Below the pieces are notes generated by a model. That model worked only from the letters and a program-made list of their open reading frames with translations, was not told the origin of the DNA and did no database searches. The translations under genes and the position numbers were made by a program. Shown here piece after piece: positions 3,061-57,637 of a stretch of 64,000 nucleotides of DNA. The stretch is from Oscillatoriales cyanobacterium. Its GTDB lineage: Bacteria; Cyanobacteriota; Cyanobacteriia; Cyanobacteriales; Microcoleaceae. The stretch's first letter is position 1; the number at the start of each line of letters is the position of its first letter. The DNA lies in contig RDYN01000015.1 in the NCBI GenBank assembly GCA_004293365.1, forward strand, positions 1 to 64,000, given 5' to 3'.

Positions 3061-3087
3061 CCATTCCCATAACAGACAATCACTGCC

Positions 3088-8161: not shown

Positions 8162-8174
8162 TAATAAATTTTCA

Positions 8175-8233
8175 GTTCGTAGTGCGGACTTCAGTCCGCT
8201 CCATGAAAGCGGACTGAAGTCCGCACTACGAAC
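8175..8233. repeat. Dispersed palindrome, family A
   Basis: Inverted repeat with arms GTTCGTAGTGCGGACTTCAG and its complement around a short loop. Both arms carry CGGAC where the copy at 4965 has AGGAC: compensated changes that keep the stem paired. It lies between the two genes of the permease pair. Confidence 0.85.
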
Positions 8234-8318
8234 CTTGCGGCGGTCAATTGACCGGGCATGATATAACTAATGACTAATGACTAATGACCAATGACCAATT
8301 CCCAATAACTATTAAAAA

Positions 8319-9358: not shown

Positions 9359-9384
9359 TATGTCATCTGAATATGTCATCTGAA
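9359..9384 (+). promoter_or_regulatory. 13-bp tandem duplication at a start codon with a mini-ORF
   Basis: The unit ATATGTCATCTGA occurs twice in a row. The first copy gives ATG at 9360, which stops after seven codons; the second gives the real start at 9373. The upstream mini-ORF overlaps the start and could affect translation. Confidence 0.6.
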
Positions 9385-33586: not shown

Positions 33587-35461
33587 TTATTCCCAATCAA
33601 ACTTTCTCCCCAAATACTCCTCTAATTCCTGATTGTAAGGTTTAAAATAATCGCTCAACAGTTCCAGAACTGACTCATTTACCCGCTGATAAGAACCGGG
33701 ATTAGCATTTTGGTATTCAGACAATTGATATTCGGGCAACTCTAAAAATGCTAAAACCTGATTGACAGTTGTCGCCGCACCTGCATACAAATCTTCGCTT
33801 TTCAAAATTAACAACTGTTCTCGCGGAAAGAAAGCCAGCCAATTTTTAATAAATTCTATATACCTGCCGCGAGCTAAGTAATTCCCAGGTTCCTCGCCGA
33901 TAATGTATTCTGGGTTTTGATTCAACCGTTCGATTTCGTCGCTAATTGCCCGATCGAGCGATCGCCCTTCCCAATTTAAGCCCTTTAAGCGATAAAAATG
34001 AGAAATCGCGCGATCGACCGGATTTCGCAACAGCACAATCAGTTTCACCTCTGGAAACGCGCTGTAGAGACGTTCCGGCGCTTCCCGAGAGTCAAAATAG
34101 CTCGGACTTGCCTCACCCGTTACAAATGGTTCTCCCTCCGGCATTTGCGGAAAATGAGCCAAATACCAATCAATCCCTCTGTGAAAGTGCCACGAGAAAA
34201 AATCCATCTCCTTTTTAATCGGAGTCAAAATTTGCGGTTGTTCAGCTAAATAAGTGTACAGAGAAGTCGTGCCGCACCGCTGAGAACCAATAATGATAAA
34301 CTTAGGCAATTTGACTGTATTTTCTTGTGGAAAAGGCATCTTCCCTATCTCAATATTTTGAGAAACAGTCATCTTGACTGTTCTCTTACTAAAAATAGAT
34401 ACAAAAGTTTGCTTGTAACTGACAGTTTGATAACAGCAAATTGCCTCAGCAATTTTGCCTTGTCTCGTCAAAACTTCCCCCAAATTCAAATAAGGCCAAA
34501 AAGCCTCCGGTTGAGCATCAACAACTTCCCAGCAAAAGTTCTCAACTTCATCCAGCTTGTTTTGCTCGATCAAAACTTCCCACAAATTGTAATAAAACCA
34601 CCAAGGAAGATCGGGATTTATTTGCATTGCTTGCAAAAAAGCCTCCGCCGCTTCCTCCCCATATTTTTGCTGGCTCAAAACCGCACCTAAATTGTAATAA
34701 GACCAGCAATCATCCGGTTCTTGGGCGACTGTGGCGCGGGCTGAGGCTAAAGCGCGATCGTCTTCCTGGGCAACGCTTACGCACTTTTCTTGCTCCTGCA
34801 ACAACTCCTCTAATTCCGGTGACGCTTTTTCACAATTCGGCAGAAATGTCAAGAGGATTTTGTAAAAAATAATAGCGCTTTTTGGGCCGCGATACTTTAC
34901 TAAACTTCTTCCTAAATTCAAATAAAATTTATGATTTTCCGGTGTAACTTGCAATTGAGATTTTTTTAAGACTAAATTTAAATCAGAATCTGTTTGTCCT
35001 AGAGCATATCCAAACTTCTCGTAAATTCCCGGCAAATCTCCGTCAATTTGAATAGCTTTTAAATACGCGACAATAGCTTCATCCCACTGTTTAAGTTTAA
35101 TTAAAGCGTCGGCTAAATTGTAAAAAGACCAAGCAAAATCTGAGTTGAGTACAATCTCGCAGCGGTAAGCAGCGACAGCATCCTCCCAGCGTTCCAATTT
35201 CAGCAAAGCATCGCCCAAATTGTGATAAGACCACGAAAAATCTGGATTTAACTCAACAGCTTTTGTGTAAGCAGCGACAGCATCCTCCCAGCGTTCGAGT
35301 TTGAGAAAAACATCGCCCAAACTGTGAAAAGACCACGAAAAATCTGGATTTAATTCAACAGCTTTGCGGTAAGCAGCAACAGCCTCATCAAACTGACCGC
35401 TTTCTAGCAGGGAATTGCCCAACTTGTGGTAATCATGACTATTCATGCGAAACTCCTGCAA
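33587..35461 (-). CDS. TPR protein with C-terminal sulfotransferase domain
   Basis: 624 residues (or 619 from a second ATG at 35446). About nine TPR repeats cover residues 1-345, the first three nearly identical at DNA level. The sulfotransferase domain (about 385-620) shows the 5'-phosphosulfate loop IIIGSQRCGTTSLYTYL and the 3'-phosphate motif VLLRNPVDRAISHFYRL. It would move sulfate from PAPS to a sugar or protein. It overlaps the end of the upstream gene by 8-23 nt, so it is the third gene of a coupled operon. No signal peptide is seen, suggesting cytoplasmic work. Confidence 0.87.
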   Translation of the reverse strand: MQEFRMNSHDYHKLGNSLLESGQFDEAVAAYRKAVELNPDFSWSFHSLGDVFLKLERWEDAVAAYTKAVELNPDFSWSYHNLGDALLKLERWEDAVAAYRCEIVLNSDFAWSFYNLADALIKLKQWDEAIVAYLKAIQIDGDLPGIYEKFGYALGQTDSDLNLVLKKSQLQVTPENHKFYLNLGRSLVKYRGPKSAIIFYKILLTFLPNCEKASPELEELLQEQEKCVSVAQEDDRALASARATVAQEPDDCWSYYNLGAVLSQQKYGEEAAEAFLQAMQINPDLPWWFYYNLWEVLIEQNKLDEVENFCWEVVDAQPEAFWPYLNLGEVLTRQGKIAEAICCYQTVSYKQTFVSIFSKRTVKMTVSQNIEIGKMPFPQENTVKLPKFIIIGSQRCGTTSLYTYLAEQPQILTPIKKEMDFFSWHFHRGIDWYLAHFPQMPEGEPFVTGEASPSYFDSREAPERLYSAFPEVKLIVLLRNPVDRAISHFYRLKGLNWEGRSLDRAISDEIERLNQNPEYIIGEEPGNYLARGRYIEFIKNWLAFFPREQLLILKSEDLYAGAATTVNQVLAFLELPEYQLSEYQNANPGSYQRVNESVLELLSDYFKPYNQELEEYLGRKFDWE

Positions 35462-38400
35462 TATTCATTAACTTCTCCAGCGAGTTCACATCCACCCGCA
35501 TATCTTTATGTCCCGAATATGTATGAGTTTGGTCATCAAACAATTCAGCAATTAAATAGTAATGTTCCAAGTCACACAAATTGCTGATAGTCCAAAAGCA
35601 ACTCGGTACATAAATCGGAGGAAAAATTTCAATTACTTTAGTTCCCGGAGTGCAAAAAACTAGATTAGTCAATCCCCCTCCGTGAGGTGATACAACTACT
35701 TTAGCCGCAGCCAAACACCTGGCTTGTTCCGCTACAGACATGGTTTCTAGTTTGACTGTACGAAACCCAAACTTTTCTAAACAGGTGACAACCTCTTCCT
35801 CGTTGACAATTCGCCGGTAGGATGCGTTTTCTCGGCTGATATAAATTTTTTCTGAATAATTTGTATTTAGCGCCTGCTGTTCATTTAAAAATATTTGTTT
35901 GAGATAGTCGCACTTCCATTGAGAAACTGCTCCCGCTCCGTCATAAGATATTGACGGAACTATTAATTTATCGGCGGTAATGTGGAGGTTGCAGCGACTT
36001 TCTAAAATTTTATCCGGCGGAATTCCTAAAATCTTTAAAGTTTCAGCTTGATAGGAAGAATCGCAGGCATTGACAACAAACTTATCTATAGTTTCTATCA
36101 ATCCGCTCCGCTGTAAAAGGTCAAATCGCGTTATCACATCAAACATCCAATGAAAATAAGCGGCTCCACCCCAGCGAGCCGATAAAAAAGCCACATTTCC
36201 ATCGACGTGTTCAGCGGGAGGCAATTTGTCGGAAGTTATTACCAATTCTGAACAACCCATTGAGATATCAGCAACAAGTTTATTGTATGAAGTAATGACG
36301 GCGGTTGTCACAACATCGGCCCAAGCTCGTCCGTTTGGAAGTACGGTAACAAAAGCTTTTCTTGAATGAGTTTGATTCGCCCAAAATCTGCTGTGGCTGT
36401 CGATTGTTTTGGAAGTTGATAAATTGATTTCACTCGCAGGATGGATGTCAATGCAGGTGAGGTGCGGATTTGATTCGGCTGCAATTGCCAAATCTTCTGT
36501 AAATCCACAGTATTTTTTGAGAACACTTAATGGTAAGATTTGATTGTTGCATTTTAGGCGATCGCTCTCCTCGACTGCTGCTTGTTGTTCCAGAGCGTAC
36601 CCTATATTATCGTAAGCTTCAAACAAATCGGGTTTAATTTGCAGGGTTTGAACTAAATTAGTGATTGCCGGTTCCCACTGCTGTTTTGCAATCAAACTCA
36701 AACCCAATCCTTCGTAACACCAACAGGATTTTGGATCGATATTGATGCCTTTTTCGTAAATTGCGATCGCCCTTTCCAATTCGCCTTGCACCCGCCAAGC
36801 ATCGGCCAACTTCTTGTACAGCCAACTGTGCTCGGGTTCTAGCTCAACAGCACGAGCAAAAGCAACCGCTGCTTCCGGCCAATTTTCTTGTTTTTCCAGA
36901 ACTTCCCCCAAACTATTGTACAGCCAACAATCGGGATTTAATTCAATAGCTTTGCGGTAAGCCGCTGCCGCATCTTCCCAATTTTTTAGTTCAATCAAAG
37001 CCTTACCCAACCTCTCATAAGACCAATAAAAATCCGCATTTAGTGCAATAAATTTGCGGTAAGCCGTTGCAGCTTCCTCCCACTCAGAAAGCTTCATCAA
37101 CCTATCGCCTAAACCGCTGTAATTCCAGCAAAAATCGGGATTTAACTCAATAGCTTTGCGGTAAGCAGCAGCGGCTTCGCCATATCGATCGAGTTGCTGC
37201 AAGGTTTCTCCCAAAAAGTGGTAAGCCCAACTAAAATTAGGATTTAGTGCGATCGCCTGTTGGTAAGCGACTACAGCTTCATTCCACAACTCTTTATCTT
37301 GCAGACTTTTACCCAACTTGTGGTAGGTTAAATAATTGCCAGACTTAATTGTAATAGCAGTTTGATAGCAGGCGATCGCCTCATCGAGATAAGCCCCATC
37401 TGCCGCAATCTGCCCCAACTTTTCCCAACCTTGACACAAAACAGCTTGCTCTTCGCCCAAACTTTGATTGCCGATTTTTTTAACAATCAGTTGATAGCCT
37501 TTGTGGACTACTTCTAACTGACTCCCAAACATCTCCAAAAAAACATCGATCCCGATTTTAGTATTTTGCTCCGGGTTGTCGGGATAGGTAAATTCATAAT
37601 CGTCAAAAATCATCAATCCGCCCACTTTCACCACCCTCCAAGATAAAATCGCATCTTGCAGAGCGCTGGTGGCTTTGTGACACCCGTCAATGTAAGCAAT
37701 ATCGTAAGATTCTGAATCCAAAGTTACTAACACTTTCTGAGAATAACCTTGCAAGGGAATTACTTTGTCGCCCGAACCCGTTTTCGCAATATTGCCGTGA
37801 AATTGCTCTTGGAAATACAAATCAATACAAGTAATATTGGCCGTTGGATGAGTTAAAATATTATCCAACAACCAGCAAGCTGACATTCCTTGCAAACTGC
37901 CAATTTCTACTACTTTAAAATCCGCAATTCCCGCTAAATGCTGCAAATGCAGTTTCCAAATTTGAATATTGTGGGTAAACCAATCTTGGGTAAATTGATA
38001 ATTTTTGGCCGCACACTCAGGCCAACCTCTCAATTCAGCAGCTTTTTGGTGGAAAACCATCGCTTCTTCCACGCGCCCCAATCGCGGTAAAAGATTTCCC
38101 AAATCGCTGTAAGGCTTAGAATTAGTCGGATCTATTTCTATTTGACTGCGGTAAGTGGCAACCGCTTCATCCAATAAATTTGCCCGAATTAAGGCAAAGC
38201 CTAAATTGGAATAAAACACCAGAATATCTGGTTTGAGTTCGAGGGCTTTGCGGTAGCAACTAATAGCTTCTTGCCACATTTGTTTGTGAGCAAAAGATTC
38301 TCCTAAATAATTGTGTGCCCAATAGGAATCATTATTGATTTCCAGCACTTGACGGTAACATTGAATAGCTTCATCAAATTCGCGTCTTTGCGCGAAAAGA

Positions 38401-39176
38401 TTGCCCAAACCCATATAAGATCGAGCGTAATTCGGATTGATTTCGAGGCTTTGCCGGTAACAGGCGATCGCCCGATCGCCTTCTCCTCGCTCCGCCCAAG
38501 TTTGACCCAAGCTGTGGTAAGATTCAAAAGAATCTGGATTGATGGCAATGGCTTGTCGGTAATTGGCGATCGCCTCATCCCACCGTTTCTGTGCGACCAG
38601 CATTTCCCCCAGATTGTGATAAGCTGTTGCCAGCTTCGGGTCTAGTTCAATTGCCCGCGAATAACACTCAGTAGCGCGATCGAGCTTTCCCAATTCAACT
38701 AAACTATTTCCCAGAGTGACGTTTTCCTCAGCCGTTGCCCAATTTGGCTCGATCTTGAAAGCTTGATACCAACAGTCTGCCGCCTCTACTCGCCGATCCA
38801 ACTGCATCCAAATTTTGGCCAACAGCCGATAAGCAGCAGCAAAATTCGGTGCAAGGGCGATCGCTTTTTCACAACTTGCGATCGCCTTTTTCCACTGTTG
38901 TCCTTGAGAATACAAACTGCCTAGATTAGCATAAACTTCCGGCAAATTCGGATTGCGATCGAGTGCCGCTTCATACCACTGTTTAGCCTGCTCGACTTCA
39001 CCTCGAACCTGCATTACCTTCCCCAGTGTCTGACAAGCTGCTGCCAAATTCGGTTCAATTTTCAGCGCTGACTCGCAAGCAGCAACTGCCTCATTCAACC
39101 TTCCTTCAACCAAATAAACTTCTGCTTGCCGATTCAAATCAACCGCTGCTTTTTCCATCTTCTCAATCGAGGGCAT
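35439..39176 (-). CDS. Giant TPR protein with methyltransferase and GT61 domains
   Basis: 1245 residues. TPRs fill about 1-385 (roughly eleven). A class I SAM methyltransferase (Methyltransf_24-like, about 395-570) has VVEIGSLQGMSACWLLD, CIDLYF and YDIAYIDGCH, all expected motifs. TPRs return at about 580-855. A GT61/DUF563 glycosyltransferase ends the protein (about 930-1240; AYFHWMFDVITRFDLL, KIYISRENASYRRIVNEEEV, VSPHGGGLTNLVFC). The enzyme would both extend and methylate a glycan. It follows the 39201-42173 gene by 24 bp and overlaps the sulfotransferase gene. Confidence 0.88.
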   Translation of the reverse strand: MPSIEKMEKAAVDLNRQAEVYLVEGRLNEAVAACESALKIEPNLAAACQTLGKVMQVRGEVEQAKQWYEAALDRNPNLPEVYANLGSLYSQGQQWKKAIASCEKAIALAPNFAAAYRLLAKIWMQLDRRVEAADCWYQAFKIEPNWATAEENVTLGNSLVELGKLDRATECYSRAIELDPKLATAYHNLGEMLVAQKRWDEAIANYRQAIAINPDSFESYHSLGQTWAERGEGDRAIACYRQSLEINPNYARSYMGLGNLFAQRREFDEAIQCYRQVLEINNDSYWAHNYLGESFAHKQMWQEAISCYRKALELKPDILVFYSNLGFALIRANLLDEAVATYRSQIEIDPTNSKPYSDLGNLLPRLGRVEEAMVFHQKAAELRGWPECAAKNYQFTQDWFTHNIQIWKLHLQHLAGIADFKVVEIGSLQGMSACWLLDNILTHPTANITCIDLYFQEQFHGNIAKTGSGDKVIPLQGYSQKVLVTLDSESYDIAYIDGCHKATSALQDAILSWRVVKVGGLMIFDDYEFTYPDNPEQNTKIGIDVFLEMFGSQLEVVHKGYQLIVKKIGNQSLGEEQAVLCQGWEKLGQIAADGAYLDEAIACYQTAITIKSGNYLTYHKLGKSLQDKELWNEAVVAYQQAIALNPNFSWAYHFLGETLQQLDRYGEAAAAYRKAIELNPDFCWNYSGLGDRLMKLSEWEEAATAYRKFIALNADFYWSYERLGKALIELKNWEDAAAAYRKAIELNPDCWLYNSLGEVLEKQENWPEAAVAFARAVELEPEHSWLYKKLADAWRVQGELERAIAIYEKGINIDPKSCWCYEGLGLSLIAKQQWEPAITNLVQTLQIKPDLFEAYDNIGYALEQQAAVEESDRLKCNNQILPLSVLKKYCGFTEDLAIAAESNPHLTCIDIHPASEINLSTSKTIDSHSRFWANQTHSRKAFVTVLPNGRAWADVVTTAVITSYNKLVADISMGCSELVITSDKLPPAEHVDGNVAFLSARWGGAAYFHWMFDVITRFDLLQRSGLIETIDKFVVNACDSSYQAETLKILGIPPDKILESRCNLHITADKLIVPSISYDGAGAVSQWKCDYLKQIFLNEQQALNTNYSEKIYISRENASYRRIVNEEEVVTCLEKFGFRTVKLETMSVAEQARCLAAAKVVVSPHGGGLTNLVFCTPGTKVIEIFPPIYVPSCFWTISNLCDLEHYYLIAELFDDQTHTYSGHKDMRVDVNSLEKLMNIAGVSHE

Positions 39177-39200
39177 AAATAAACTTACTCCAGACGCCAG

Positions 39201-42173
39201 CTAACCCAAACCAACTACTTCAACCATCCTTTTGAGCGAACTCAAGTTCACCAAAATATCCTCAGTCAGCGAATTCTGATACATCAACTGTCTAATAGGA
39301 TAGCATTCAAAAGCCTCACCCGCTAAAAAGTAATGTTCCAACTGCAAATATTGACTGATTCCCCAGTAATAATGACTGATATAATGAGGCGACACCAACT
39401 CAATTACTTTAGTTCCAGATTTACAAAAAATCGTATTTGTCAACCCGCTGCCGTGGGCAGCAACTATCACCTCAGCATGATAAAAATGAGCAATTTGTTC
39501 AGCCAAAGACATCGACTCCGGCAAAATAGAAACAAAGCCAGATTTTTCCAAAACCTCAACCACATCTTCCTCGTTCAAAACTCGGCGATATCTAGCTTTG
39601 CTGCGACTGATGTAAATGCGTTTTGGATAGTTTGAACCAGGTATAATTCCCTTGAGAAACTCCCGCCTCAAAAAATCGATCGCCCATCCGGACGGCCAGC
39701 CCAAATATCCCGCAAAAGAAGGTACAATTAACTCTGTTGCTTGCAGGTGAGGAATACGATCGCTCTCCAAAACCTTTTCTGTTGGAATTTCCAGAATCCT
39801 GAGACTTTCCCGCTGAAAATCGTGCTGACAGCTATTCACCAAAAACCAATCAATTTCCGCCAAATCCCTACCGCTGCGGCGTAGCAATTCTATCCTCGGC
39901 AAAACGTCCACCATCCAGTGAAAATAGACACTTCCCGACAAACCAGAAAGCACCGCCACGCTGCCGTCAATTTGCTTTAAAGGCCCAAAAGATTCTAAAT
40001 TAAAAACGCTGTGTTTTCTCACATCATGTTTCTCGCATCCCGGCAACAAACCAGGATAATCTCTCGACACATCAGCCAACAAATAATTGTCCGGAGTAAT
40101 GACAGCAATCGCCTTGCAAATCAGCCAATAATTTTGCTCGGGGACAATCCAAACTCGTCCTTTGGGAATCTGTGCCACAAAAGTTTTTGGTGGATCCACA
40201 GGTATCGGCTGCGAGTTAGACAAACGGCAAACTCCCCAACCCAAATGCACCGGATCGAACCACTTAGAAATTCGCTGCAAACACAGCCCGCAAGTTAAAC
40301 CGGCACAATCGGAATTTGCCAACTGCGAATTAACAGAAAATTTAGAATTCGGAATATTTTCTCCCCTGGCTTCTGTTGCAGATTCCCAAACAATTTCCAC
40401 ATAATTGCCAGCATCCAACTTAGCATTAACCAGCCAGTCCCAACTCGATAAATAAATACCGCGCGGACGTTCTAAATAATTGCTTTCTGAGGATATAAAA
40501 GTCTGTTTCTCCCACTGTTTGGGGTCTCCATACCCGTGCAATTGCAACTCTAAAACCTGTTGATAATAATCGATCGCCCTTTCCAAGCGTCCCTGTTTTT
40601 CCAGCAGTTTCGCCAACTCAAAATAAACATGAGGTAAAGCTGGTTGAATTTTCAAAGCCATGCGGTAAACGACAATTGCCGCGCCGAATCGGTGCTGCTG
40701 GGCCAAGCAATTTCCCAGCCGCCAGTAAAGCTCGGGATTTTGCGGCTGAATTTGCACAGCTTTTTGATAATAAGCAGCGGCTGATTCATAGCCGCCGTAC
40801 TCTGTTAAAGCATTCCCCAAATGCAGGTAAATTTCTGCTAAATAATCGCAAATTTCAGCAATCGGGAATTGGGCATCGGGAATTGGGAATTGGGAATCGG
40901 GAATTGGGAATTGGGAATTGGGAATTGGGAATTGGGAATTGGGAATTGGGAATTGGGAATTGGGAATTGGTAATTGGGAATTGGTAATTGGTAATTGGGA
41001 ATTGGGAATTGGGAATTGGGAATTGGTAATTAATCTTCCCTCTTTCTTCTTGCTTCTGCCTTCTTCCTTGACTTTTAAATCCGTTACATCCGTTACATCC
41101 GTTACATCCGTTACATCCGCTACAAAATCCGTTGCCGAACTTCCCATCAATGCTGTGAGAAATCGATCGCACGCAGCGATCGCCCTTGACAATTCATCAT
41201 CCTCTACAGCAGCAGCTTGCCTCACTTCTCCCAAACGGCAGTAAGCCTCAACAAAATCTGGCTTCAGAGCTATTGCACGCTCAAAATAAGCCATGGCTTC
41301 GGCAATTTTGCCCAAAACCATCAAAGAAAATCCGGCGTCCGTACAGCCCGAAATATGCTCGGGATTGAGTTCGATTACCCGATCGAAACAAGCAACCGCC
41401 GCCAAATGTTCCCCCTGCAATTGCCAAGCTTTCCCCAGATTGTAGTGAGCCAAAACCATCTCCGGCTCTAGCTCGATCGCGCGACGGTAAGATGCGATCG
41501 CCTTTTCGGGACTTGTCTGGTGGAACACCTGGCCCAAATTGTTGTGCAGCGTCGCCCAATCCGGCTTAATCTCGATCGCCCGCTGGTAAATCTCGATCGC
41601 CTCAGCAGGGCGATCTTCCTTCAGCAAAATCACACCCAGATTGCTGTAAGCTTCCACATAATCGGGCCCGAGGGCGATCGCCTGACGGTAGCTATCAATT
41701 GCCGCTTCTAGCTGATTATTTTCATTTAAAACCACAGCCAGATTGAATACTGCAAGCAGATAATCGGGTTTTTGGGCGATCGCCTTTCGGTAACAGTCGA
41801 TCGCCCCCAACAAATTACCCTGCAGGTGAAAAACATTTCCCAAGTTATAATTAACTTCCGGCCAATTTGGTTTCAACTCCAGAGCTTGCCGGTAGTGAAA
41901 AGCCGCCTCATCCAGCCAGCAATAATCGCTGTAAAGTTGACCCAAATAAGCATGAGCCACTACAAATTTGGGGGAAATCTCCAAAGCTTGGACAAAAGCG
42001 TCTCTTGCCGCCGTCGGATCGCCGCTCGCTTCGAGGATTTCACCTAAAGTGGTGTAAGCTAGCGGCGAAAATGGCTGTAGTTCGATCGCCCGATGGCAAA
42101 AATCGATCGCCTCAGTTAACTTTCCCTGCTTCAAATAAACTTGGGCTTGCCGGATGTATTCTTGAGTGGTCAT
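39201..42173 (-). CDS. TPR protein with C-terminal GT61 glycosyltransferase
   Basis: 990 residues, first gene of the operon. TPRs fill about 1-340. Two low-complexity inserts follow: [13 protein letters not shown] (353-365), from a 9-bp DNA repeat, and about nine heptapeptides of NSQFPIP type (382-445), from a 7-bp DNA repeat. Further TPRs occupy about 446-555, then a spacer, then the GT61 domain (about 680-985: [54 protein letters not shown]). GT61 enzymes add xylose or similar sugars. The glycan is unknown; the operon's sulfotransferase and methyltransferase suggest heavy decoration. Confidence 0.88.
40857..41034. repeat. In-frame heptamer repeat within the TPR-GT61 gene
   Basis: About 24 copies of the 7-nt unit GGGAATT, with GGTAATT variants, all inside the 39201-42173 gene. 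Since 7 is not a multiple of 3, three units give a 7-residue repeat (21 nt) in a single open frame, which is why NSQFPIP repeats appear. Confidence 0.9.
41078..41122. repeat. 9-bp tandem repeat (CCGTTACAT)n in the same gene
   Basis: About five copies of CCGTTACAT, giving the DVT tripeptide repeat in the product. It keeps frame because 9 is a multiple of 3. Confidence 0.85.
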
Positions 42174-42865: not shown

Positions 42866-43726
42866 TTAGAACAGCTCGAAATTGTTCGAGGTAATTGTCA
42901 GGTTCGGTGCCAGTTGAGCAACCTGTAGCACTCCGTTGCCACCGTTGAAGAACAACCCACCGCTTGTTGGATCGTAGATCAACTTGTTCGTGGTCGATCC
43001 TGGGCTGTTAACGCTGAAATTAGAAACCACGACAAACTCGCTGGCCTCGAAGCTGGTACCCAAGCCAGCGAACACACCGCCCTGCTTCAAGCGAATCTTA
43101 TCTTCAGCAGGCGTAAAGTCAGTGATCGTGTCTATGCCGTCTAATGTACCGCTAACGACCGAGGTGGCGAAGTAGAACGTGTCGCTGCCAGCACCGCCAG
43201 TCAGGACATCGCTGCCTCTGTCGCCAGAGATAAAGTCATTGCCAGCGCCACCATCGACAGTATCGCTGCCTTTACCGCCCCAGAGGGTATCGTTGCCATC
43301 GCCACCGCCGACAGTATCGCTGCCTTCGCCGCCGAACAGGGTATCGTTACCAGTTCCGCCGAGTACGACATCGTTGCCTTTGTCTCCAGAAACCAAGTCA
43401 TTGCCAGCACCGCCGTCGAGCAGGTCATTCCCTTTACCGCCAAAGATTCTGTCATCACCGTCACCGCCAGAGACAGCATCATTGCCACTGCCTGAAACGA
43501 GGGCATCGTTACCGCTGCCGCCGCCGAGACTGTCATTGCCGCCACCGGAAAAAATGATGTCGTCCCCACCGTTACCGGCGATGACATCATCGCCCCCAAA
43601 GGTCAGGATGATATCGTTGAGATTGCCTGCACTTAATCTGTTTGCGCCTGTGGTGCCGACAACACTGGAGCCGCCAGCTCCTGGCAAAGAAACTGCTGGT
43701 TGTGTTGGATTAGTTACCTGTGTCAT
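42866..43726 (-). CDS. RTX-type Ca2+-binding repeat protein, probable type I secretion substrate
   Basis: 286 residues. It has a short head ([11 protein letters not shown]), then from about 40 to 170 a run of about 14 nonapeptides of the GGxGxDxUx type (GGDDVIAGN, GNDALVSGS), which fold as a Ca2+-binding beta-roll, then a C-terminal domain ([23 protein letters not shown]) ending NNFELF. No N-terminal signal peptide is present, as expected for type I secretion with a C-terminal signal. It probably acts outside the cell. It is paralogous to 44944-45816 and shares its upstream 54-bp element. Confidence 0.9.
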   Translation of the reverse strand: MTQVTNPTQPAVSLPGAGGSSVVGTTGANRLSAGNLNDIILTFGGDDVIAGNGGDDIIFSGGGNDSLGGGSGNDALVSGSGNDAVSGGDGDDRIFGGKGNDLLDGGAGNDLVSGDKGNDVVLGGTGNDTLFGGEGSDTVGGGDGNDTLWGGKGSDTVDGGAGNDFISGDRGSDVLTGGAGSDTFYFATSVVSGTLDGIDTITDFTPAEDKIRLKQGGVFAGLGTSFEASEFVVVSNFSVNSPGSTTNKLIYDPTSGGLFFNGGNGVLQVAQLAPNLTITSNNFELF

Positions 43727-43797
43727 TTACACTCCTCCTAAAAGATGAATCACTTTTCTACAATACACTTTTCCCTCCAAAGGGATTCAATAAATCG

Positions 43798-43851
43798 AAC
43801 CGGACATCGGTTGAGACCCTAATTGACCCGGCTGCTATAAGCTGTCATGTA
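43798..43851 (-). promoter_or_regulatory. Conserved 54-bp upstream element of RTX gene 1
   Basis: Matches 51 of 54 positions of the segment at 45885-45938, which is upstream of the paralogue. Between the copies and the start codons the sequence diverges, so it appears selected. On the gene strand it carries TTATAGC, a possible -10 box, then a GGGTC..ACCG leader. Confidence 0.65.
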
Positions 43852-44943: not shown

Positions 44944-45816
44944 CTAGAACAGCTCGAAGTTGTTGCGGCTGACAGCAGTGGAGCTAAGATTGAGCCCTGG
45001 TTGCAGTTGAGCCACAGTTTTCACTCCGCCGTTGCCTGGGTTGTAGTACAACAAACCGTTTTGCGGGTCGTAGACGATCTTGTTCAAAGTATTTGCTGGT
45101 GCGCTTGCGGGGGCAAAACCAGCAACCACGATAAAGTCAGTAGCATCGAAAGAGCCACCCAAACCAGAGAAAGCATTGCGATCGAAACTGAGTTTATCTT
45201 CACCGGGGTTAAAGTCGGTAATTGTGTCAATTCCATAATCGCCACCAACACCAGCGAAGTAGAACGTATCGCTACCGGCACCGCCAGTCAGAAGGTCAGC
45301 TCCTCTGTCGCCAGAGATAAAGTCATCCCCTCTCCCGCCATCGACAGTATCGTTCCCTCGGCCGCCGAACAGGCTGTCGTTGCCGTCACCGCCCAAAACG
45401 ATATCGTTGCCGTCACCACCCAAAGCAGTATCGTTACCCGATCCGCCAAGTACGGTGTCATTGCCCCGATCTCCAGAGACGAAATCATCCCAATCACCGC
45501 CGTTGACGAGATCGAAACCTTTACCGCCGAAGAGAGTGTCGTTGCCGTTGCCACCATCGACTACATCGTTGCCTGTACCAGCATAGACAGTATCATTGTC
45601 GCTGCCACCACCCACACTATCATTGCCACCTCCTGAAAAAATCAGGTCATTCTCACCGCCACCAGCGATGATATCGTTGCCCCCAAAAGTCAGGATGATA
45701 TCTTCTTCGATCGTTCCCCGTATCCTGTTATCGCCTTGGGTGCCGATAATATCAAGTCCACCCGCACGATTTTCAACCGCAGATGCTGGCTGAGTTGGAT
45801 TAGTTACCTGTGTCAT
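44944..45816 (-). CDS. RTX-type Ca2+-binding repeat protein, paralogue of the upstream copy
   Basis: 290 residues. The head [11 protein letters not shown] and tail NNFELF are the same as in the 42866-43726 protein. About 14 GGxGxDxUx repeats (about 45-165) precede the [22 protein letters not shown] domain. The repeats themselves differ between the paralogues more than the ends do, so the pair may have arisen by duplication with later repeat turnover. Secretion by a type I exporter is inferred; no exporter gene is in the window. Confidence 0.9.
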
Positions 45817-45884
45817 TTACATTCCCCCCCCCTTACATCAATTATTTTTTCTACTTGTTCCCTTCAACGGGATTTCATCAATTA

Positions 45885-45938
45885 AACCGGACATCGGTTG
45901 AGACCCAGATTGACCCGGCTGCTATAGGCTGTCATGTA
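45885..45938 (-). promoter_or_regulatory. Conserved 54-bp upstream element of RTX gene 2
   Basis: Nearly identical to 43798-43851 (3 mismatches). It lies 69 bp from the start codon (72 bp for the other copy), so its position is conserved as well. Confidence 0.65.
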
Positions 45939-50858: not shown

Positions 50859-51513
50859 AATCCGCCCCTAGGCGTGTTTTGTTTGAAGTTGCTCTTTTAC
50901 CCAAGCTCGAAATGCTCTGATTGTTGGGCTTCTTCCTTGGGTGTTGGCGCGATCGACATATTGGCGAATTATATCAACAATGGGAAAATAAAAGACGGCG
51001 GTTGAAACCGCGCCTATAAAAACGAAGTCCGGATGGTGCGCGGACTGAAGAGAGTAAATGAATAAAACAACGTAATTTTCACGACCAGTTCTTCAACCTG
51101 CGGAGGCACGTGAGTGTTTGTATAGACGCGGTTTTAACCGCCGTTTTAGGTTCGTAGTGAGGACTTTAGTCCTTTCTTGGATGCGGACTAAAGTCCTCAC
51201 TACGAACCAAAGAATTAGGGAACCAAAAGCATCCGCGAGTCCCAAACCTCACTCATTGTCAAAACTTCCTGCCGCGCCCACTTGTCCGCCGCCAGAATCT
51301 CATCCAAAGCCGGAGTTTCAACGAAGTCCGTATGGTGTGCGGACTGAATACAATAAATGAAGAAAATAACGTAATTTTCACGACCAGTTCTTCAACCTGC
51401 GGAGGCACGTGAGTGTTTGTATAGACGCGGTTTTAACCGCCGTTTTAGGTTCGTAGTGAGGATTTTAGTCCTTTCTTGGATGCGGACTAAAGTCCTCACT
51501 ACGAACCAAAGAA
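50859..51513. repeat. Tandem 299-bp duplication with palindromes
   Basis: Copy 1 is 51022-51320; copy 2 is 51321-51619 and includes the end of dxr. Each copy has a family C right arm, a family A palindrome (51150-51207; 51449-51506) and the dxr 3' end. The left family C arm is at 50994-51021. The copies differ by scattered substitutions. Confidence 0.9.
51215..51320 (-). pseudogene. Duplicated 3' fragment of dxr
   Basis: This piece of copy 1 translates as an uninterrupted match to the dxr C-terminus ([20 protein letters not shown], then MSEVWDSR), ending in TAA. It has no start or catalytic part and is not expressed as a functional protein. Confidence 0.88.
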
Positions 51514-52704
51514 TCAGCGAACGGAAAGAATCCGCGAGTCCCAAACCTCACTCATTATCAAAACTTCCTGCCGCGCCCACTTATCCGCCGCCAAAATATC
51601 ATCCAAAGCAGGAGTTTCACAGTTATCCGCTTGATGTTTGTCGCACACCTTCTCAATCAACTTCGGAATATCCAAAAACGTAATCTTTTCCTCCAAAAAT
51701 AGCGCTACAGCCTGTTCGTTTGCCGCATTCAGCACCGCAGGCATTGAACCGCCCGCCCGGCCCGCCGCATAGGCTAACTGCATACAAGGATACTTTTCGT
51801 GATCGGGTTCTCGGAAAGTCAAATCACCGGATTTTACTAAATCTAGCTGCGGCCAATCTGTCTGAATTCTTTCCGGCCAAGACAAAGCGTAAAGTAGGGG
51901 TAAACGCATATCCGGCCAGCCCAATTGTGCCAAAACGGATGTATCTTGTAGCTCAATTAACGAGTGAATGATACTCTGGGGATGGATGACAATATCAATG
52001 TCGTCATAATCCATGCCGAACAGGTAATGAGCCTCAATTACTTCCAATCCTTTATTCATCAAAGTAGCAGAATCAATGGTGATTTTCTGCCCCATCGACC
52101 AATTCGGATGTTTCAAGGCATCGGCGACTGTTACTTCGCCTAACTTTTCAACGGGCAAATCTCGAAAAGAACCGCCCGAAGCTGTGAGAATAATTCGGCG
52201 CAACCCTCCCGCCGGTATGCCTTGCAAACATTGAAAAATTGCCGAATGTTCCGAGTCTGCCGGCAATACTTTAACCCCATATTTTTCGATGAGGGGGTTG
52301 ACAACGGGGCCGCCGGCGATTAATGTTTCTTTATTGGCTAAGGCGATATCTTTGCCTGCTTTGATGGCTGCAATTGTTGGTAGCAAACCGGCACAGCCAA
52401 CTATGCCTGTGACGACGGCTTCAGCATCGCCGTATTTGGCAACTTCGACAACGCCTGACTCGCCAGCAAGTAAAATAGGTTGAGGGTCGAGATCTGCGAT
52501 CGCCCTTTGCAATTCCTCTAATTTATCTTCGTCGCAAATCGCGACAATTTCTGGTTTAAACTGGCGAATTTGTTGTGCGAGTAACGTTACATTTCGTCCG
52601 GCGGTTAACCCGACAATCCGAAATTGTTCGGGGTATTGAGCTACAATATCCAGAGTCTGAGTGCCGATGGAGCCTGTGGAGCCGAGAAGAGTTATTGCTT
52701 TCAC
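51514..52704 (-). CDS. dxr: 1-deoxy-D-xylulose 5-phosphate reductoisomerase
   Basis: 396 residues, full length. NADPH site [12 protein letters not shown], then catalytic and metal motifs ([44 protein letters not shown]). It makes MEP, the first committed step of plastid-type isoprenoid synthesis, for carotenoids, chlorophyll tails and quinones. The stop lies within the 299-bp duplication. The start ATG at 52704 is divergent from the DUF2079 genes. Confidence 0.95.
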
Positions 52705-52831
52705 AATTTTTTAAGGTTTTGTGGATTATTCTAATATTACGATTACTGGAACTCAAATTAGCGGTTAACTATGGCGTGGCAAGCACATTTGAGGGAATCA
52801 TATTTTGAGTCGTCAGTTAGTGTCAGATTTC

Positions 52832-54397
52832 ATGGATAATGGGGAAAATTTTGCTGATGACCGTGAGGATATCGGCGTTGGAATGGGGGAAAATATAGAA
52901 GAAAGTCGATCGCGCTTGCCGTCGAGTTTGGTTTGGGCGATCGCCATTGCTGCTACAATTTTCTTTGCCTGTAGCAGTTTACGGCACGCTTTATTCCAAT
53001 CCACAGCCTTCGATTTGGGAATTTTTGACCAAGCAATTTACTTGCTAAGTCAAAACCAAACGCCGTTTTCTTCCTTGATGCAGATTCATATTTTGGGAGA
53101 TCACGCAGCGGTAATCTATTATCCGCTGGCTTTGCTGTACAAAATTTACCCGGATGTGCATTGGCTGCTGTTGGTACAAGCCGTGGCTTTATCCCTGGGA
53201 GCCTGGCCTAGCTGGAGTTTAGCGCGTTTGGCCGGATTAAATCAAGTACAGTCTCGGGCGATCGCCCTAATTTATTTGCTCTATCCGGTGGTATTCAACA
53301 TCAACTTATTTGATTTTCACCCGGAAGTAATCGCTTTACCCGCACTCTTAGCAGCAATTTTAGCAGCGCGCTTAAATAAACTGGTGTGGTTTTGTAGCGC
53401 AATTCTGCTGGTGTTAAGCTGCAAGGCAGTTTTGTCTATAACCGTTGCTGCGATTGGTTTTTGGCTGTTTTTCTGCGAGAAAAAGCAACGGTTTGGGGCG
53501 ATCGCACTTTTACTAGGTGTAGCATGGTTTTTGATAGCTTCCCAAAAAATCATCCCCTACTTTAGCGGTAGCGAAGTCGCCGGAGTCGGGCGCTACAGCT
53601 ATTTAGGCAAATCCGTCCTAGAAATCATCATCAACCTTCTATTAAAACCCCAGCTAGTATTAGGAAAAATTCTTTCCTTCGACACATTCAAATACTTATT
53701 TATCCTCACCTTACCCGTGATTTGGCTGATACTGCCATTCTCCCGCAAAATCAACCTCAAATATTTAACAGCCCTAATTCCTGCCATCCCGACATTAATT
53801 ATCAATATTCTCTCCGACTTGCCATTTCAACGCAGCTTGGCTTATCAATATTCAGTGCCGATAATTCCATTTTTAATCCTAGCAATTATAGCCAAAGAAC
53901 AAACAATAAAAAATATAGAAGAAAAACTCGAAAAACCGTCATCCAGTCCACTAAAAACAGCAAATTTGAAAGTTAAAAACATCCAAATTCCGCAAATGTG
54001 GCTCGGAATGCAATTACCCAAAGCAATGGTAATTTGGTCATTAATAATATTCCTATTGCTGGGAGAATCCAAAGACTTTATTCTGTACGCAAATAGACTA
54101 GATACCTGGCAAGCCACACGAGAAGCAATCGCCCAAGTTCAACCCCAAAGCAGTATTTTAACAGATAATAGACTTGCACCTCACTTTGCCCACCGCCCCA
54201 CAGTCAAATTACTTTCACAAATTTCACCCCAAACAAAAATAACTGAATTTAAATACATATTATTAAACCTGCGCCATCCGTGGCCAGATACGGAAAAAAT
54301 TGGTAACACCTTAGCAAATCAACTTAAAAACGATCGCGCTTTTCAATTAACTTATCAAAAAAACCAAGTTCTACTATTTAAACGCATCGCCGATTAA
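52832..54397 (+). CDS. DUF2079-family polytopic membrane protein 1
   Basis: 521 residues from ATG at 52832 (a TTG at 52805 would add nine). About 12 hydrophobic helices. The conserved DUF2079 head is SSLRHALFQSTAFDLGIFDQ, followed by ILGDHAAVIYYPLALLYKIY and NLFDFHPEVIALPALLAAIL. This family is, to my knowledge, related to GT-C glycosyltransferases (sugar transfer from polyprenyl donors), but no activity is proven. It is the first of three tandem paralogues; the next begins 9 bp after its stop. Confidence 0.85.
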   Translation: MDNGENFADDREDIGVGMGENIEESRSRLPSSLVWAIAIAATIFFACSSLRHALFQSTAFDLGIFDQAIYLLSQNQTPFSSLMQIHILGDHAAVIYYPLALLYKIYPDVHWLLLVQAVALSLGAWPSWSLARLAGLNQVQSRAIALIYLLYPVVFNINLFDFHPEVIALPALLAAILAARLNKLVWFCSAILLVLSCKAVLSITVAAIGFWLFFCEKKQRFGAIALLLGVAWFLIASQKIIPYFSGSEVAGVGRYSYLGKSVLEIIINLLLKPQLVLGKILSFDTFKYLFILTLPVIWLILPFSRKINLKYLTALIPAIPTLIINILSDLPFQRSLAYQYSVPIIPFLILAIIAKEQTIKNIEEKLEKPSSSPLKTANLKVKNIQIPQMWLGMQLPKAMVIWSLIIFLLLGESKDFILYANRLDTWQATREAIAQVQPQSSILTDNRLAPHFAHRPTVKLLSQISPQTKITEFKYILLNLRHPWPDTEKIGNTLANQLKNDRAFQLTYQKNQVLLFKRIAD

Positions 54398-54406
54398 ACC
54401 AAGAAA

Positions 54407-55972
54407 ATGCTAACCTTACAATCTCCAAAATCCCATCCAGTATTGTTAATGATTGTCATCACAACGATAATCTTATTTGCCGCCAGCAGCGCGCGCCACG
54501 CTTTGTTTCATTCCACTGCCTACGACTTAGCCATTTTTGACCAAGCAATTTACTTAATCTCCCAAAATCAAACACCATTTTCCTCATTAATGGAAATCAA
54601 TATTTTAGGCGATCATGCTGCCTTTATCTTCTATCCCCTAGCCTTACTTTACAAAATATATCCCGACGTGCACTGGCTGTTATTCGTGCAAGCTTTTGCC
54701 CTAGCCCTAGGTGCTTGGCCTAGTTGGAGTTTAGCACGTCAAGCGGGATTAGATGAACCAAGGGCGATCGCCATTTCAGCCATGTATCTGCTATATCCGG
54801 TAGTATTTAACGTCAACCTCTTCGACTTCCACCCCGAAGTCATAGCAATGCCAGCCATTTTAGCAGCAATCCTAGCCGCCAGACTGGATAAAACCTTGTG
54901 GTTTTGTGCCGCCATCCTCTTAATCTTAAGCTGCAAAGCCGTGCTATCTTTAACAGTTTTGATGATGGGAGTTTGGCTATTCTTTTTTGAGAAAACTCGC
55001 AAGTGCGGGCTCATCGCTATATTTCTCGGTGCGGCTTGGTTTTTGATAGCAACTCAAGCAATCGTACCATATTTTAATCAAGGCAAACAACACGCAGGTA
55101 TCGGGCGATATCAATATTTAGGAAACTCAGTTTTAGAAATAGCTATTAATTTAATCTTGAAACCAAATCTGATTTTAGGGCGTTTGTTTTCCGCTGATAC
55201 TTTCGGATATTTGATTTTATTATTTTTCCCTGTAATTTGGTGGCTTTCCCCGCGTCACCTGTCACCTTTAATTGGTGCTTTTCCCATGCTAGTGATGAAT
55301 ATTCTTTCGGATATTGACGCTCAGCGAGATTTGATTCACCAGTATTCAGTGCCGATATTTCCCTTTGTATTAACTGTGGTAATTTCTACGATAGCAGACA
55401 GACAGAGAAGAGGTAATAATTTTTGGAAAAATGCCTGGAATTATCTATGGAATCATCGCAACTTGATGCCGCGAATTTGGAAGCCAGTCTCTAAAAGAAT
55501 TTCGGTTAAAACTGTTAAACATATCTGGATGCACCGCCTTTCGATTCGCCGCAGTTGGAGGTGGGGGAAATTGCTGTTTGCTAATGTGTCAAAATTGTTA
55601 ATTTTATGGTCGCTTTTAAGTTTTTTGATTTTAGCAAAATATGGGTATTTTGGAACAATTTATTTAGAGTCTCTCGATACTTGGCAAGCGACGCGACAGG
55701 CAATTAATAGAGTGCAAACTCAAGGCAATGTCTTAACGGATAATTCCCTAGCAACTCATCTCGCTCACCGTACAACAATTAAATTGCTGCATCAAGTTGC
55801 CAAGGGGCAAAATTTGAATAAATTTGAGTATGTACTATTAAATATGCGGCATCCTTGGCACGATACTGCGGCTACTGCTGCGAGGGTTGTGACTCAACTT
55901 AAAAAATCTCCTGAGTTTAAGATTAGCTATCAGCAAGATGATGTTTGGTTGTTTCAGAAAGTCAGAAATTAG
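54407..55972 (+). CDS. DUF2079-family polytopic membrane protein 2
   Basis: 521 residues. The helix pattern and FDLxIFDQ-type motif (YDLAIFDQAIYLISQNQTPF) are as in the first copy. A Trp/Arg-rich loop of about 70 residues (near 325-400: NFWKNAWNYLWNHRN, RRSWRWGKLL) is absent from the other two copies, and is predicted cytoplasmic. It is close to paralogue 1 (9 bp), so the two are likely co-transcribed. Function as for paralogue 1. Confidence 0.85.
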   Translation: MLTLQSPKSHPVLLMIVITTIILFAASSARHALFHSTAYDLAIFDQAIYLISQNQTPFSSLMEINILGDHAAFIFYPLALLYKIYPDVHWLLFVQAFALALGAWPSWSLARQAGLDEPRAIAISAMYLLYPVVFNVNLFDFHPEVIAMPAILAAILAARLDKTLWFCAAILLILSCKAVLSLTVLMMGVWLFFFEKTRKCGLIAIFLGAAWFLIATQAIVPYFNQGKQHAGIGRYQYLGNSVLEIAINLILKPNLILGRLFSADTFGYLILLFFPVIWWLSPRHLSPLIGAFPMLVMNILSDIDAQRDLIHQYSVPIFPFVLTVVISTIADRQRRGNNFWKNAWNYLWNHRNLMPRIWKPVSKRISVKTVKHIWMHRLSIRRSWRWGKLLFANVSKLLILWSLLSFLILAKYGYFGTIYLESLDTWQATRQAINRVQTQGNVLTDNSLATHLAHRTTIKLLHQVAKGQNLNKFEYVLLNMRHPWHDTAATAARVVTQLKKSPEFKISYQQDDVWLFQKVRN

Positions 55973-56011
55973 TATGATAATAAGTAATAGTCGCGGACGT
56001 ATCAATACCAA

Positions 56012-56078
56012 AGAAACCGGGTTTTTTATCGATATTAAAGGCGATGATGCAATATTTCCCTAAAAAAACCCGGTTTCT
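56012..56078. repeat. Family B hairpin
   Basis: AGAAACCGGGTTTTTT and AAAAAAACCCGGTTTCT arms with a 36-bp centre, similar to the array units at 20253-20612. It lies between paralogues 2 and 3 and may attenuate read-through. Confidence 0.8.
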
Positions 56079-56197
56079 GCCTCCAGGATTAAAGTAAGAT
56101 ACAACCCGGTGAATCAACCGTAATTCCTGTAGGGGCGGGTTCACACCCAGTCTTTGAAAAAGCGCATCAATCCAATAAACCCGCCCCGGCTCAGACT

Positions 56198-57637
56198 ATG
56201 AACAATTTTAAGCTAAAATATCATCCAGTAATTTGGCAAATCGCCCTTTTTGCCCTAATATTTTTTCTGTGCAGCAGTGTACGCCACGCCCTGCTTGAAT
56301 CCAACGCCTTTGAGCTCGGAATTTACGATCAAGTAGCCTATCTCATCAGTCAATCACAAACGCCGTTTTCCTCATTTCTGGAAATTCACCACCTGGGAAA
56401 TCACGCCGCTGGGGTGATGTATCCCGTGGCTTTGCTTTACAAAATATATCCCGATGTTCATTGGCTGTTGTTAGTGCAAGCAGTCGCCCTAGCATCCGGT
56501 GCTTTGCCAGTTTGGGGTTTGGCCATTCAAGCCGGATTAAAGAATAGTATATCTCGGGCGATCGCCTGTATCTACCTTTTCTATCCATTAGTTTTCAATG
56601 TCAACCTCTTCGACTTCCACCCCGAAGTAATTGCTTTACCCGCACTCCTAGCAGCAATCCTCGCCGCGCGGCTGAATAAAACTCTGTGGTTTTGTGCTGC
56701 CACCGTCTTAGTTTTGAGCTGCAAAGCCGTGCTATCTTTAACTGTAGCTGCGATGGGATTGTGGCTCTTGTGTTTTGACAAAAAACGCAATTGCGGGCTG
56801 ATAGCTCTATTTCTCGGCGTAGGTTGGTTTTTGGTAGTTACTCAGGGAATTATACCCTATTTCAATCAGGGAAGAGAACACGCGGGAATCGGCAGATATC
56901 AATATTTGGGAAACTCGGTTTTAGAAATTGCTGTTAATTTAATCTTGAAGCCAAATCTCATTTTAGGGCGTTTATTTTCGGCTGATACTTTTGAATATTT
57001 AGCATTATTAATATTGCCTGTAATTTGGTGGCTTTCGCCGCGGCATCTGACACCTTTAATTAGCGCTGTGCCAATGTTGGCTATGAATATTCTTTCGGAT
57101 ATCCCGGCTCAACGAGATTTGATCCATCAATATTCTATTCCAATATTGCCGTTTTTGTTAGTTGCCGTAATTTCAAGTTTGGCAGATAGGAATCAGCAAC
57201 AGAGAAACACAATATTTGATAGATTGTTAATTCCCGATTATCAATTGCCGAGAGTGATTGTAATTTGGTCGTTGATTGGTTTCTTAGCTTTAGCAAAATA
57301 CGGCTATTTTTGGACTATTTATGTAGATTCCCTCGACACTTTGTCGGCTAGCAGAGAAGCGATCGCCCTCGTCAACACAAAAGGCAGTGTTTTAACCACT
57401 TCTCACATGGCTCCGCACTTAACGCACCGCCCTGTACTACGCTTAACTCAGGCTCAGGCGCCTCCTGGAAATCTCGCAGAGTTTGAGTATGTGTTGCTGA
57501 ATCTGAGGTATCCTGGCTGGATGAGCGATCGAGCTTTTGTGCAAAACCTCATAACTAAACTCAGAAATAACCCTCAATTTCAACTAAAATATCAGCGGGA
57601 TGACATTTATCTATTTGTCCAAAACGTTAAAAAATAA
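56198..57637 (+). CDS. DUF2079-family polytopic membrane protein 3
   Basis: 479 residues, the shortest of the three. It keeps the head (SSVRHALLESNAFELGIYDQ) and the NLFDFHPEVIALPALLAAIL helix, with a DQ motif in GIYDQ. The mid part is nearly the same as paralogue 2 (YQYLGNSVLEIAVNLILKPN), but the cytoplasmic insert is only about 30 residues. A 225-bp gap with a hairpin separates it from paralogue 2. Copies vary mainly in the C-terminal quarter. Confidence 0.85.
   Translation: MNNFKLKYHPVIWQIALFALIFFLCSSVRHALLESNAFELGIYDQVAYLISQSQTPFSSFLEIHHLGNHAAGVMYPVALLYKIYPDVHWLLLVQAVALASGALPVWGLAIQAGLKNSISRAIACIYLFYPLVFNVNLFDFHPEVIALPALLAAILAARLNKTLWFCAATVLVLSCKAVLSLTVAAMGLWLLCFDKKRNCGLIALFLGVGWFLVVTQGIIPYFNQGREHAGIGRYQYLGNSVLEIAVNLILKPNLILGRLFSADTFEYLALLILPVIWWLSPRHLTPLISAVPMLAMNILSDIPAQRDLIHQYSIPILPFLLVAVISSLADRNQQQRNTIFDRLLIPDYQLPRVIVIWSLIGFLALAKYGYFWTIYVDSLDTLSASREAIALVNTKGSVLTTSHMAPHLTHRPVLRLTQAQAPPGNLAEFEYVLLNLRYPGWMSDRAFVQNLITKLRNNPQFQLKYQRDDIYLFVQNVKK

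Follow-up and report, generated by a model that had tools for sequence, protein, structure and literature searches.

Linkage of small RTX protein genes with TPR-fused glycosyl-, methyl- and sulfotransferase genes in filamentous cyanobacteria

In the HMW1A-HMW1C type of system, the genes for a secreted surface protein and its glycosyltransferase lie together, the enzyme, a member of family GT41, attaches N-linked glucose, and the protein leaves the cell by two-partner secretion. GT41 is also the enzyme domain of O-GlcNAc transferase and SPINDLY. In cyanobacteria, oscillin (646 residues, 46 repeats) and SwmA (130 kDa) are glycosylated RTX (repeats-in-toxin) surface proteins of motile species that have been linked with motility, and no glycosylating enzymes are named for either in the available portion of the source (PMC3034196). 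The xss cluster of Synechocystis, which includes Wzx, Wzy and PCP genes, is described in the accessible part of its report as producing the sulfated polysaccharide synechan, a polymer (PMC8205485). Here we analyse a window of 64,000 nt from an Oscillatoriales cyanobacterium (contig RDYN01000015.1, assembly GCA_004293365.1, positions 1 to 64,000) in which three adjacent genes, g1, g2 and g3, join tetratricopeptide repeat (TPR) arrays to GT61 glycosyltransferase, methyltransferase and sulfotransferase domains, downstream of two small RTX genes. The enzyme domains are identified by family, the genes lie close together or overlap, the arrangement is conserved, and RTX and enzyme genes lead to one another when either is used as the starting point. 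From these sequence comparisons we lean towards the reading that a cytosolic, TPR-scaffolded line attaches a glycan to the neighbouring RTX protein, with methylation and sulfation, ahead of its type I secretion.

Genes of the locus and their domains

A first-pass annotation of this DNA had described a three-gene operon whose products join long TPR arrays to GT61, to a methyltransferase plus GT61, or to a sulfotransferase. Pfam searches agree with it on all three, which lie on the minus strand and encode a TPR-GT61 protein, a TPR-methyltransferase-TPR-GT61 protein and a TPR-sulfotransferase. The genes and their mapped enzyme domains, together with the two RTX genes that the annotation had left out and that belong with the set, are as follows.

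39201-42173, minus strand: g1, 990 aa; TPR array A, repeat-rich linker, TPR array B, GT61
39402-39926, minus strand: GT61 domain of g1 (PF04577, 1.3e-31 to 1.1e-30)
35439-39176, minus strand: g2, 1245 aa; TPR array, Methyltransf_24, TPR array, GT61
37596-37910, minus strand: class I methyltransferase domain of g2 (Methyltransf_24, PF13578, 1.3e-21), residues 423-527
35631-36158, minus strand: GT61 domain of g2 (PF04577, 2.1e-32 to 2.2e-31)
33587-35446, minus strand: g3, 619 aa from its likely ATG; TPR array, sulfotransferase
42866-43726, minus strand: RTX1, 286 aa (PF00353, HemolysinCabind, 1.7e-44); no cysteine; tail NNFELF; presumed acceptor
44944-45816, minus strand: RTX2, 290 aa (PF00353, 3.9e-30); N- and C-terminal motifs as in RTX1

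The gene coupling that had been described is likewise present. A gap of 24 bp separates g1 from g2, and the likely start of g3, an ATG at 35446 with AGGAG just upstream, overlaps the g2 stop by 8 nt, so that g2 and g3 look translationally coupled. A longer g3 open reading frame (ORF) of 624 aa starts at a TTG at 35461 and would give a 23-nt overlap with g2. A scan for promoters and terminators, which found 19 and 17, respectively, against 17.5 and 14.3 in shuffled sequence, was given no weight.

Many TPR models match all three proteins and most of their non-enzyme sequence is TPR. In g2 one array precedes each of the two enzyme domains, and in g1 two arrays flank a low-complexity linker, features absent from the first-pass annotation. 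The arrays of the three genes are mutually related; for example, the second array of g2 matches that of g3 at 37% over 280 aa, and a non-standard element is common to the g2 and g3 arrays. From this relatedness we infer that the set probably represents one TPR chassis that was duplicated and fitted with different enzymes. A 102-bp tandem repeat within g3 (35103-35383; 2.8 copies, 81%) has as its unit one 34-residue TPR and is thus a sign of TPR duplication in that gene. Hydropathy, the measure used for this check, gave no membrane-like segment (maximum KD19 1.32) and no hydrophobic N-terminus in g1, g2 or g3, and the enzymes look soluble.

Both GT61 domains score far above the family cut-off of 27 bits (107 bits in g1 and 109 in g2, over model positions 1-137). 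Among solved structures the GT61 profile matched EOGT (8e-7) and POMGNT2 (5e-5 to 2e-4), which are by name protein O-linked N-acetylglucosaminyltransferases; we take both of these nearest solved relatives to act on protein-bound acceptors. The sulfotransferase domain lies at the C-terminal end of g3 (Sulfotransfer_1, PF00685, 2.5e-17), and its profile matched the bacterial structure 3rnl (1e-35), 3bd9 (6e-35) and 1t8t (2e-33). Heparan 3-O- and N-sulfotransferases were matched at 1e-35 to 1e-29, whereas small-molecule enzymes were matched weakly, at about 1e-4, and by this comparison the g3 enzyme resembles glycan (heparan-type) sulfotransferases more than small-molecule ones. Two stretches, G..GT.SL and RNP..R..S, are invariant in the sulfotransferase alignment and presumably serve the binding of 3'-phosphoadenosine-5'-phosphosulfate (PAPS). 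The methyltransferase profile of g2 gave no match among solved structures. An AlphaFold2 model of g3 reached a mean pLDDT of 84.5 and a pTM of 0.59, the latter making the relative placement of its TPR and sulfotransferase parts unreliable. In a Foldseek search with this model the top match was the TPR domain of O-GlcNAc transferase, with a low TM-score (0.27/0.46), and sulfotransferases matched well (3rnl, TM 0.78 by target length). The corresponding model of g1 is confident mainly in TPR array A, to about residue 280.

RTX1 and RTX2 each contain six stretches of calcium-binding nonapeptide repeats (PF00353), which place them in the RTX class, and they share a C-terminal domain ending in NNFELF. 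Across loci, the RTX partners mostly measure 174-441 aa. Most have a tail like NNFELF, some a GG(L/M)DI-like stretch, and many a common N-terminal start, of which MSxx is one form. Cysteine is absent from all 25 genus RTX ORFs and from 42 of the 48 RTX ORFs of other loci.

Conservation and linkage in both directions

The window belongs to a 7.3-Mb genome of a filamentous cyanobacterium (G000) whose named relatives include Microcoleus, Tychonema and Kamptonema. We compared 29 genomes of its genus (Microcoleus-type cyanobacteria, one genome per species), and since each of them has the operon or part of it, the arrangement in the window is not due to chance. The g2-type GT61 was found in all 29, the g1 GT61 region at no less than 79% identity in 27 (contigs begin at the end of g1 in G022 and inside g2 in G026), and the g3 sulfotransferase at no less than 76% identity in 28. 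In G019, which lacks g3, g1 and g2 are followed directly by a peroxiredoxin gene. The first-pass annotation had named separate transcription and randomly varying TPR arrays as outcomes that would refute its assembly line, and as far as sequence can tell neither is indicated. The three genes are close or overlapping across the genus. In 24 of the 29 genomes g2 encodes 1362-1374 aa, and random drift of its TPR arrays is therefore rejected. About 118 aa of the first g2 array are missing from both the window and G011; the remaining copies are cut by a contig end (G026) or split into several ORFs in draft genomes (G001 and G005). In G020 and G026 a second g2-like piece, which we did not count, lies on a short contig, and both assemblies may be mixed.

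All 21 genus loci that extend far enough upstream of g1 have an RTX gene there, on the same strand; in the remaining eight genomes the contig stops inside the operon or at most 380 bp upstream of g1. Downstream, the neighbouring genes for Uma2, peroxiredoxin, SbtA, a PII-like protein and GAPDH are also kept in most genus loci that reach that far. Such conservation could reflect common descent alone, and the RTX linkage was therefore examined beyond the genus. For example, a Kamptonema locus (L129) keeps RTX, g1, g2 and g3 together despite a different downstream gene.

To this end, profiles for GT61 and sulfotransferase built from the window locus were searched against 243 genomes of the order, and one for the methyltransferase against 195. 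Matches were found in 140 of 243 (E 1e-20), 111 of 243 (E 1e-40) and 61 of 195 genomes (E 1e-20), respectively. We fetched 60 regions among the GT61 matches listed, taking first those where GT61, methyltransferase and sulfotransferase were co-located and then other high scorers. Their RTX status was unknown at the time of choice, except for L158, which shares a contig with L129, where an RTX gene had already been seen. After dropping two regions without a TPR-GT61 ORF above 550 aa and four with less than 1.5 kb of upstream sequence, 54 loci were kept, all from genera other than the window's. An automatic rule (at least three nonapeptide matches, same strand, no more than 1.5 kb upstream of the TPR-GT61 gene) placed an RTX gene upstream in 33 of the 54, spanning 19 of 29 genera and 10 of 15 families. 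Seven further cases read by eye bring the loci with RTX upstream or within to 40 of 54: L157 and L158 have RTX upstream of the first of their GT61 genes, L159, L161 and L162 have it between the GT61 and methyltransferase genes (an order found across L159-L162), L185 has a 149-aa ORF with the shared tail at a distance of 24 bp, and in L205 the C-terminal part of an RTX gene lies at 685 bp. As a control we used 20 stand-alone sulfotransferase loci of roughly 7-11 kb each, of which none had RTX within 1.5 kb upstream and five had RTX anywhere in the region. Fisher's test of 35 of 54 RTX-linked loci against this control gave 1e-7 with relatedness ignored, a value that overstates the certainty since the loci are related and the controls may largely form one ortholog group.

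The syntenic operons that the first-pass annotation suggested seeking are kept in the genus and recur in other parts of the order. Most often the genes run RTX, TPR-GT61, TPR-methyltransferase, TPR-sulfotransferase; another form is RTX, TPR-GT61-TPR, TPR-sulfotransferase. Among mapped loci the methyltransferase-GT61 fusion is confined to the window's genus and Kamptonema, and a methyltransferase-sulfotransferase fusion occurs in L197. Measured from the most upstream starts, the RTX ORF shares 20 nt with the GT61 ORF in both L188 and L194, and in L131 the RTX ORF overlaps a TPR-methyltransferase ORF that is followed by a TPR-GT2-GT4 protein. Eight further TPR proteins of such loci comprised three with GT2, one with GT2 and GT4, and four with TPR only among the matches listed.

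In a tree of 62 GT61 domains, one supported clade holds 51 rows, of which 42 are RTX-linked; the nine unlinked rows include L191 and L215, which just lack upstream sequence, and five unlinked rows lie in another clade. With by-eye labels included, the tree required 8 label changes against 15.0 for shuffled labels, and none of 500 shuffles was as low, although clustering of this kind is by itself no proof of function.

The linkage was also evident in reverse. A profile built from the C-terminal 100 residues of 14 RTX partners, searched in 15 genomes, gave 13 matches of at least 68 bits, and 12 of these adjoin TPR genes of the set. Five of the 13 are rows of the profile itself, and of the other eight, seven are linked. 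This count takes RTX2 of the window as linked with RTX1 lying between it and g1, and likewise a match on contig C207, where the contig breaks off within a TPR ORF and shows no GT61. Seven of eight weaker matches were fetched, and none stood beside such an enzyme. We read these patterns as one ancient association between RTX proteins and TPR enzymes that appears to have been kept through changes of spacing, order, fusion and neighbours. Separately, the start of contig C207 and the end of contig C13 in the window's genome seem to hold the two parts of a split paralogous cluster (RTX, TPR-GT61, TPR, TPR, TPR-sulfotransferase).

Proposed mechanism and its alternatives

Nucleotide sugars and PAPS are cytosolic donors. 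Taken with the soluble-looking enzymes and the linked gene for a protein of the RTX class, which is exported by type I secretion, this makes a line that modifies the protein before export the best fit, and as the RTX gene is the constant neighbour of the operon, its product is a likelier acceptor than a sheath polymer. The small RTX protein would be synthesised in the cytosol, whose low calcium does not allow RTX folding, and could be held in the superhelical grooves of the enzyme-bearing TPR arrays. The GT61 domains would start and extend a glycan on it from nucleotide sugars, the methyltransferase of g2 would methylate that glycan, and the g3 sulfotransferase would sulfate it from PAPS. The decorated protein might then leave through a type I secretion system encoded elsewhere and, once at the cell surface, fold as it binds calcium, much like the glycosylated RTX proteins described from motile species. 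We infer that the RTX protein is the acceptor, in which order the modifications follow, that export is of type I, and that the product serves at the surface or in gliding. More tentatively, and with the balance slightly against it, the same may hold throughout the order, as a cyanobacterial system in which GT61, an S-adenosylmethionine-dependent methyltransferase, a PAPS sulfotransferase and sometimes GT2 or GT4, all TPR-scaffolded and cytosolic, would equip a dedicated small RTX protein with a methylated, sulfated O-glycan ahead of type I secretion.

Several observations weigh against such a pre-export modification. A partial scan of ORFs, with no genome-wide search, showed no type I secretion gene, and RTX repeats are abundant in the window's genome (180 matches). 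In the genus the nearest RTX gene is 188-692 bp from g1, so RTX may form a separate transcript there. An RTX partner is missing from 14 of the 54 TPR-GT61 loci, four of them from one genus, and a Lyngbya aestuarii locus (L130; TPR-sulfotransferase, TPR-methyltransferase, TPR-sulfotransferase, TPR-GT61) has no RTX in the 20 kb examined. The GT61 of g2 itself falls outside the RTX-linked clade. Conversely, a strong RTX-domain match in G134 (L239) has no such enzyme beside it, and the RTX profile missed the linked RTX genes of G110, G112, G128, G046, G145 and G124, whose more divergent sequences indicate that the profile covers one branch of partners. GT61 matches EOGT and POMGNT2 weakly (8e-7 to 2e-4), and in the g1 model the GT61 part was too poor for use. 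Gliding Phormidium sp. KS is reported, in the portion of the source at hand, to have no close oscillin homolog (PMC4284469), which makes a gliding role of the RTX proteins uncertain. Finally, cyanobacterial sulfotransferase genes lie mostly in polysaccharide clusters according to the accessible part of PMC8205485.

This last point also favours an alternative that we regard as unlikely yet the strongest of those considered, namely that the enzymes produce a sulfated, methylated glycan of sheath or slime, either free or lipid-linked, that the RTX protein is a surface protein binding this glycan, and that the genes travel together since all act on one structure. GT2 or GT4-GT2 proteins, which make up 5 of the 10 flanking proteins scanned in other families, would suit it, as would a Wzx-like flippase gene at 9373-10773. 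This gene, however, is the sole flippase, lies 23 kb away on the strand opposite to the operon, and is joined by no Wzy-type companion: a partial Pfam scan of 30 ORFs outside the operon, out of 67 window ORFs of at least 100 aa, detected no polymerase, co-polymerase or polysaccharide export gene, and a partial scan of the 10 flanking proteins detected no polymerase or polysaccharide export gene either. Soluble-looking enzymes also fit poorly with a polymer pathway, as does the RTX gene being usually first in the unit, with RTX and enzyme ORFs overlapping in three loci.

The first-pass annotation itself proposed an assembly line for a sulfated, methylated glycan, perhaps the sheath polymer, with the TPRs keeping the enzymes or a carrier in one place; this would leave the RTX protein a bystander. 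Its enzyme set and gene coupling are real, and the co-inherited set could make a methylated, sulfated glycan; moreover, the genes for peroxiredoxin, SbtA, the PII-like protein and GAPDH are conserved as well, presumably by descent, and RTX could be too. The recurrence of the RTX linkage in other genera and families, together with the adjacency of 12 of 13 strong RTX C-terminal matches to these TPR genes, argues otherwise, and the sheath polymer as target finds no support where the partial scan shows no polymerase, co-polymerase or export gene and the constant neighbour is an RTX gene. We consider a bystander role for RTX improbable. Least probable of all is that the TPR arrays are chaperones keeping RTX unfolded for secretion while the enzymes act on some small molecule or on a different protein. 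Several TPR chaperone models do match the arrays, every one below its own cut-off, and the g2 arrays are long and conserved, but several different carbohydrate-active domains on a related chassis are then hard to explain, and the sulfotransferase profile is far closer to heparan than to small-molecule enzymes.

Other features of the locus and comparison with known systems

Two further elements of the locus were mapped.

43754-43850, minus strand: 5' leader of RTX1, 97 nt; second copy at 45853-45937 before RTX2
40860-41031, minus strand: heptanucleotide array in the g1 linker, 24.6 copies, encoding in frame PNSQFPI-like heptapeptides

The leader was found in four of eight genomes searched, solely at these RTX genes, with 98% identity in two genomes of the window's genus and 91% in a different genus; most of it is missing from L073, which also belongs to the window's genus. 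A structured leader RNA was considered and rejected, as there was no Rfam match and the fold was no better than in shuffles (z -0.24). The g1 linker (residues 306-442) has low AlphaFold2 confidence and mostly no predicted structure. Linkers of this kind (window 40860-41124; L065-L096) collect short tandem repeats, including heptamers, a 9-mer and KKEEGR-type repeats, and differ widely between species in repeat type and in length (24-175 aa in the window and 24 relatives). Each heptamer gained or lost would shift the frame, and phase variation was therefore considered; a single frame nonetheless runs through the linker in 25 of 27 genus g1 copies, the other two (L071 and L081) being cut by contig ends. 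A flexible tether under selection for frame would fit better than phase variation, in a comparison of one genome per species whose scope does not extend to switching within a strain.

Elsewhere in the window, genes for DnaA and DNA polymerase III beta (1584-4658) place the operon about 30-40 kb from a possible replication origin. The window also holds genes for an ArsP_1 permease and a DUF1980 protein (7085-9107), a 299-bp tandem duplication with copies 94% alike (51021-51619), and genes for three consecutive DUF2079 membrane proteins (52805-57637). In a locus of another family, an ArsP_1 gene directly follows the RTX-TPR cluster (L165:12448-13509).

Among the matches listed in a literature search, which did not extend to bioRxiv or most subscription papers, no title or abstract start described a set of RTX and TPR-enzyme genes. 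How cyanobacteria glycosylate surface RTX proteins appears, from the portions of the literature available, to be an open question for which the conserved RTX genes and GT61, methyl- and sulfotransferases offer a direct and testable candidate, approachable in named strains such as Microcoleus vaginatus HSN003 (NZ_CP031705). If modification before export is correct, it would point to protein-linked sulfated glycans in bacteria and hence to a bacterial protein-sulfoglycan pathway, would demonstrate enzyme swapping on a shared TPR chassis, and would give a genetic handle on the glycoproteins of filament surfaces in filamentous cyanobacteria.

Of the described systems, xss resembles the window operon in bringing cyanobacterial sulfotransferases and glycosyltransferases together, but it has Wzy and PCP, neither of which the partial scan found near this operon, and the accessible part of its report mentions no TPR fusion (PMC8205485). 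RTX1 and RTX2 are, like oscillin and SwmA, cyanobacterial RTX repeat proteins, a likeness of class, and the RTX partners of TPR loci are mostly smaller than the sizes given for those two proteins in the part of PMC3034196 at hand. The joining of a TPR superhelix to a C-terminal transferase is shared by g1-g3 with O-GlcNAc transferase and SPINDLY, which were the first Foldseek matches of the g3 model, over the TPR part only and with low TM-score; in place of their enzyme domain, g1-g3 carry GT61, methyltransferase or sulfotransferase. A parallel in action is the HMW1A-HMW1C type, in which a secreted surface protein receives its sugar from a soluble glycosyltransferase while still in the cytosol, as is proposed here. 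The RTX set may work like that pair, and would then add the RTX class to the secreted proteins that are glycosylated in the cytosol, but it is not a member of the type, since it has GT61 rather than GT41, places glycosyl, methyl and sulfate transfer domains on a TPR chassis, and has an RTX protein as its putative acceptor.

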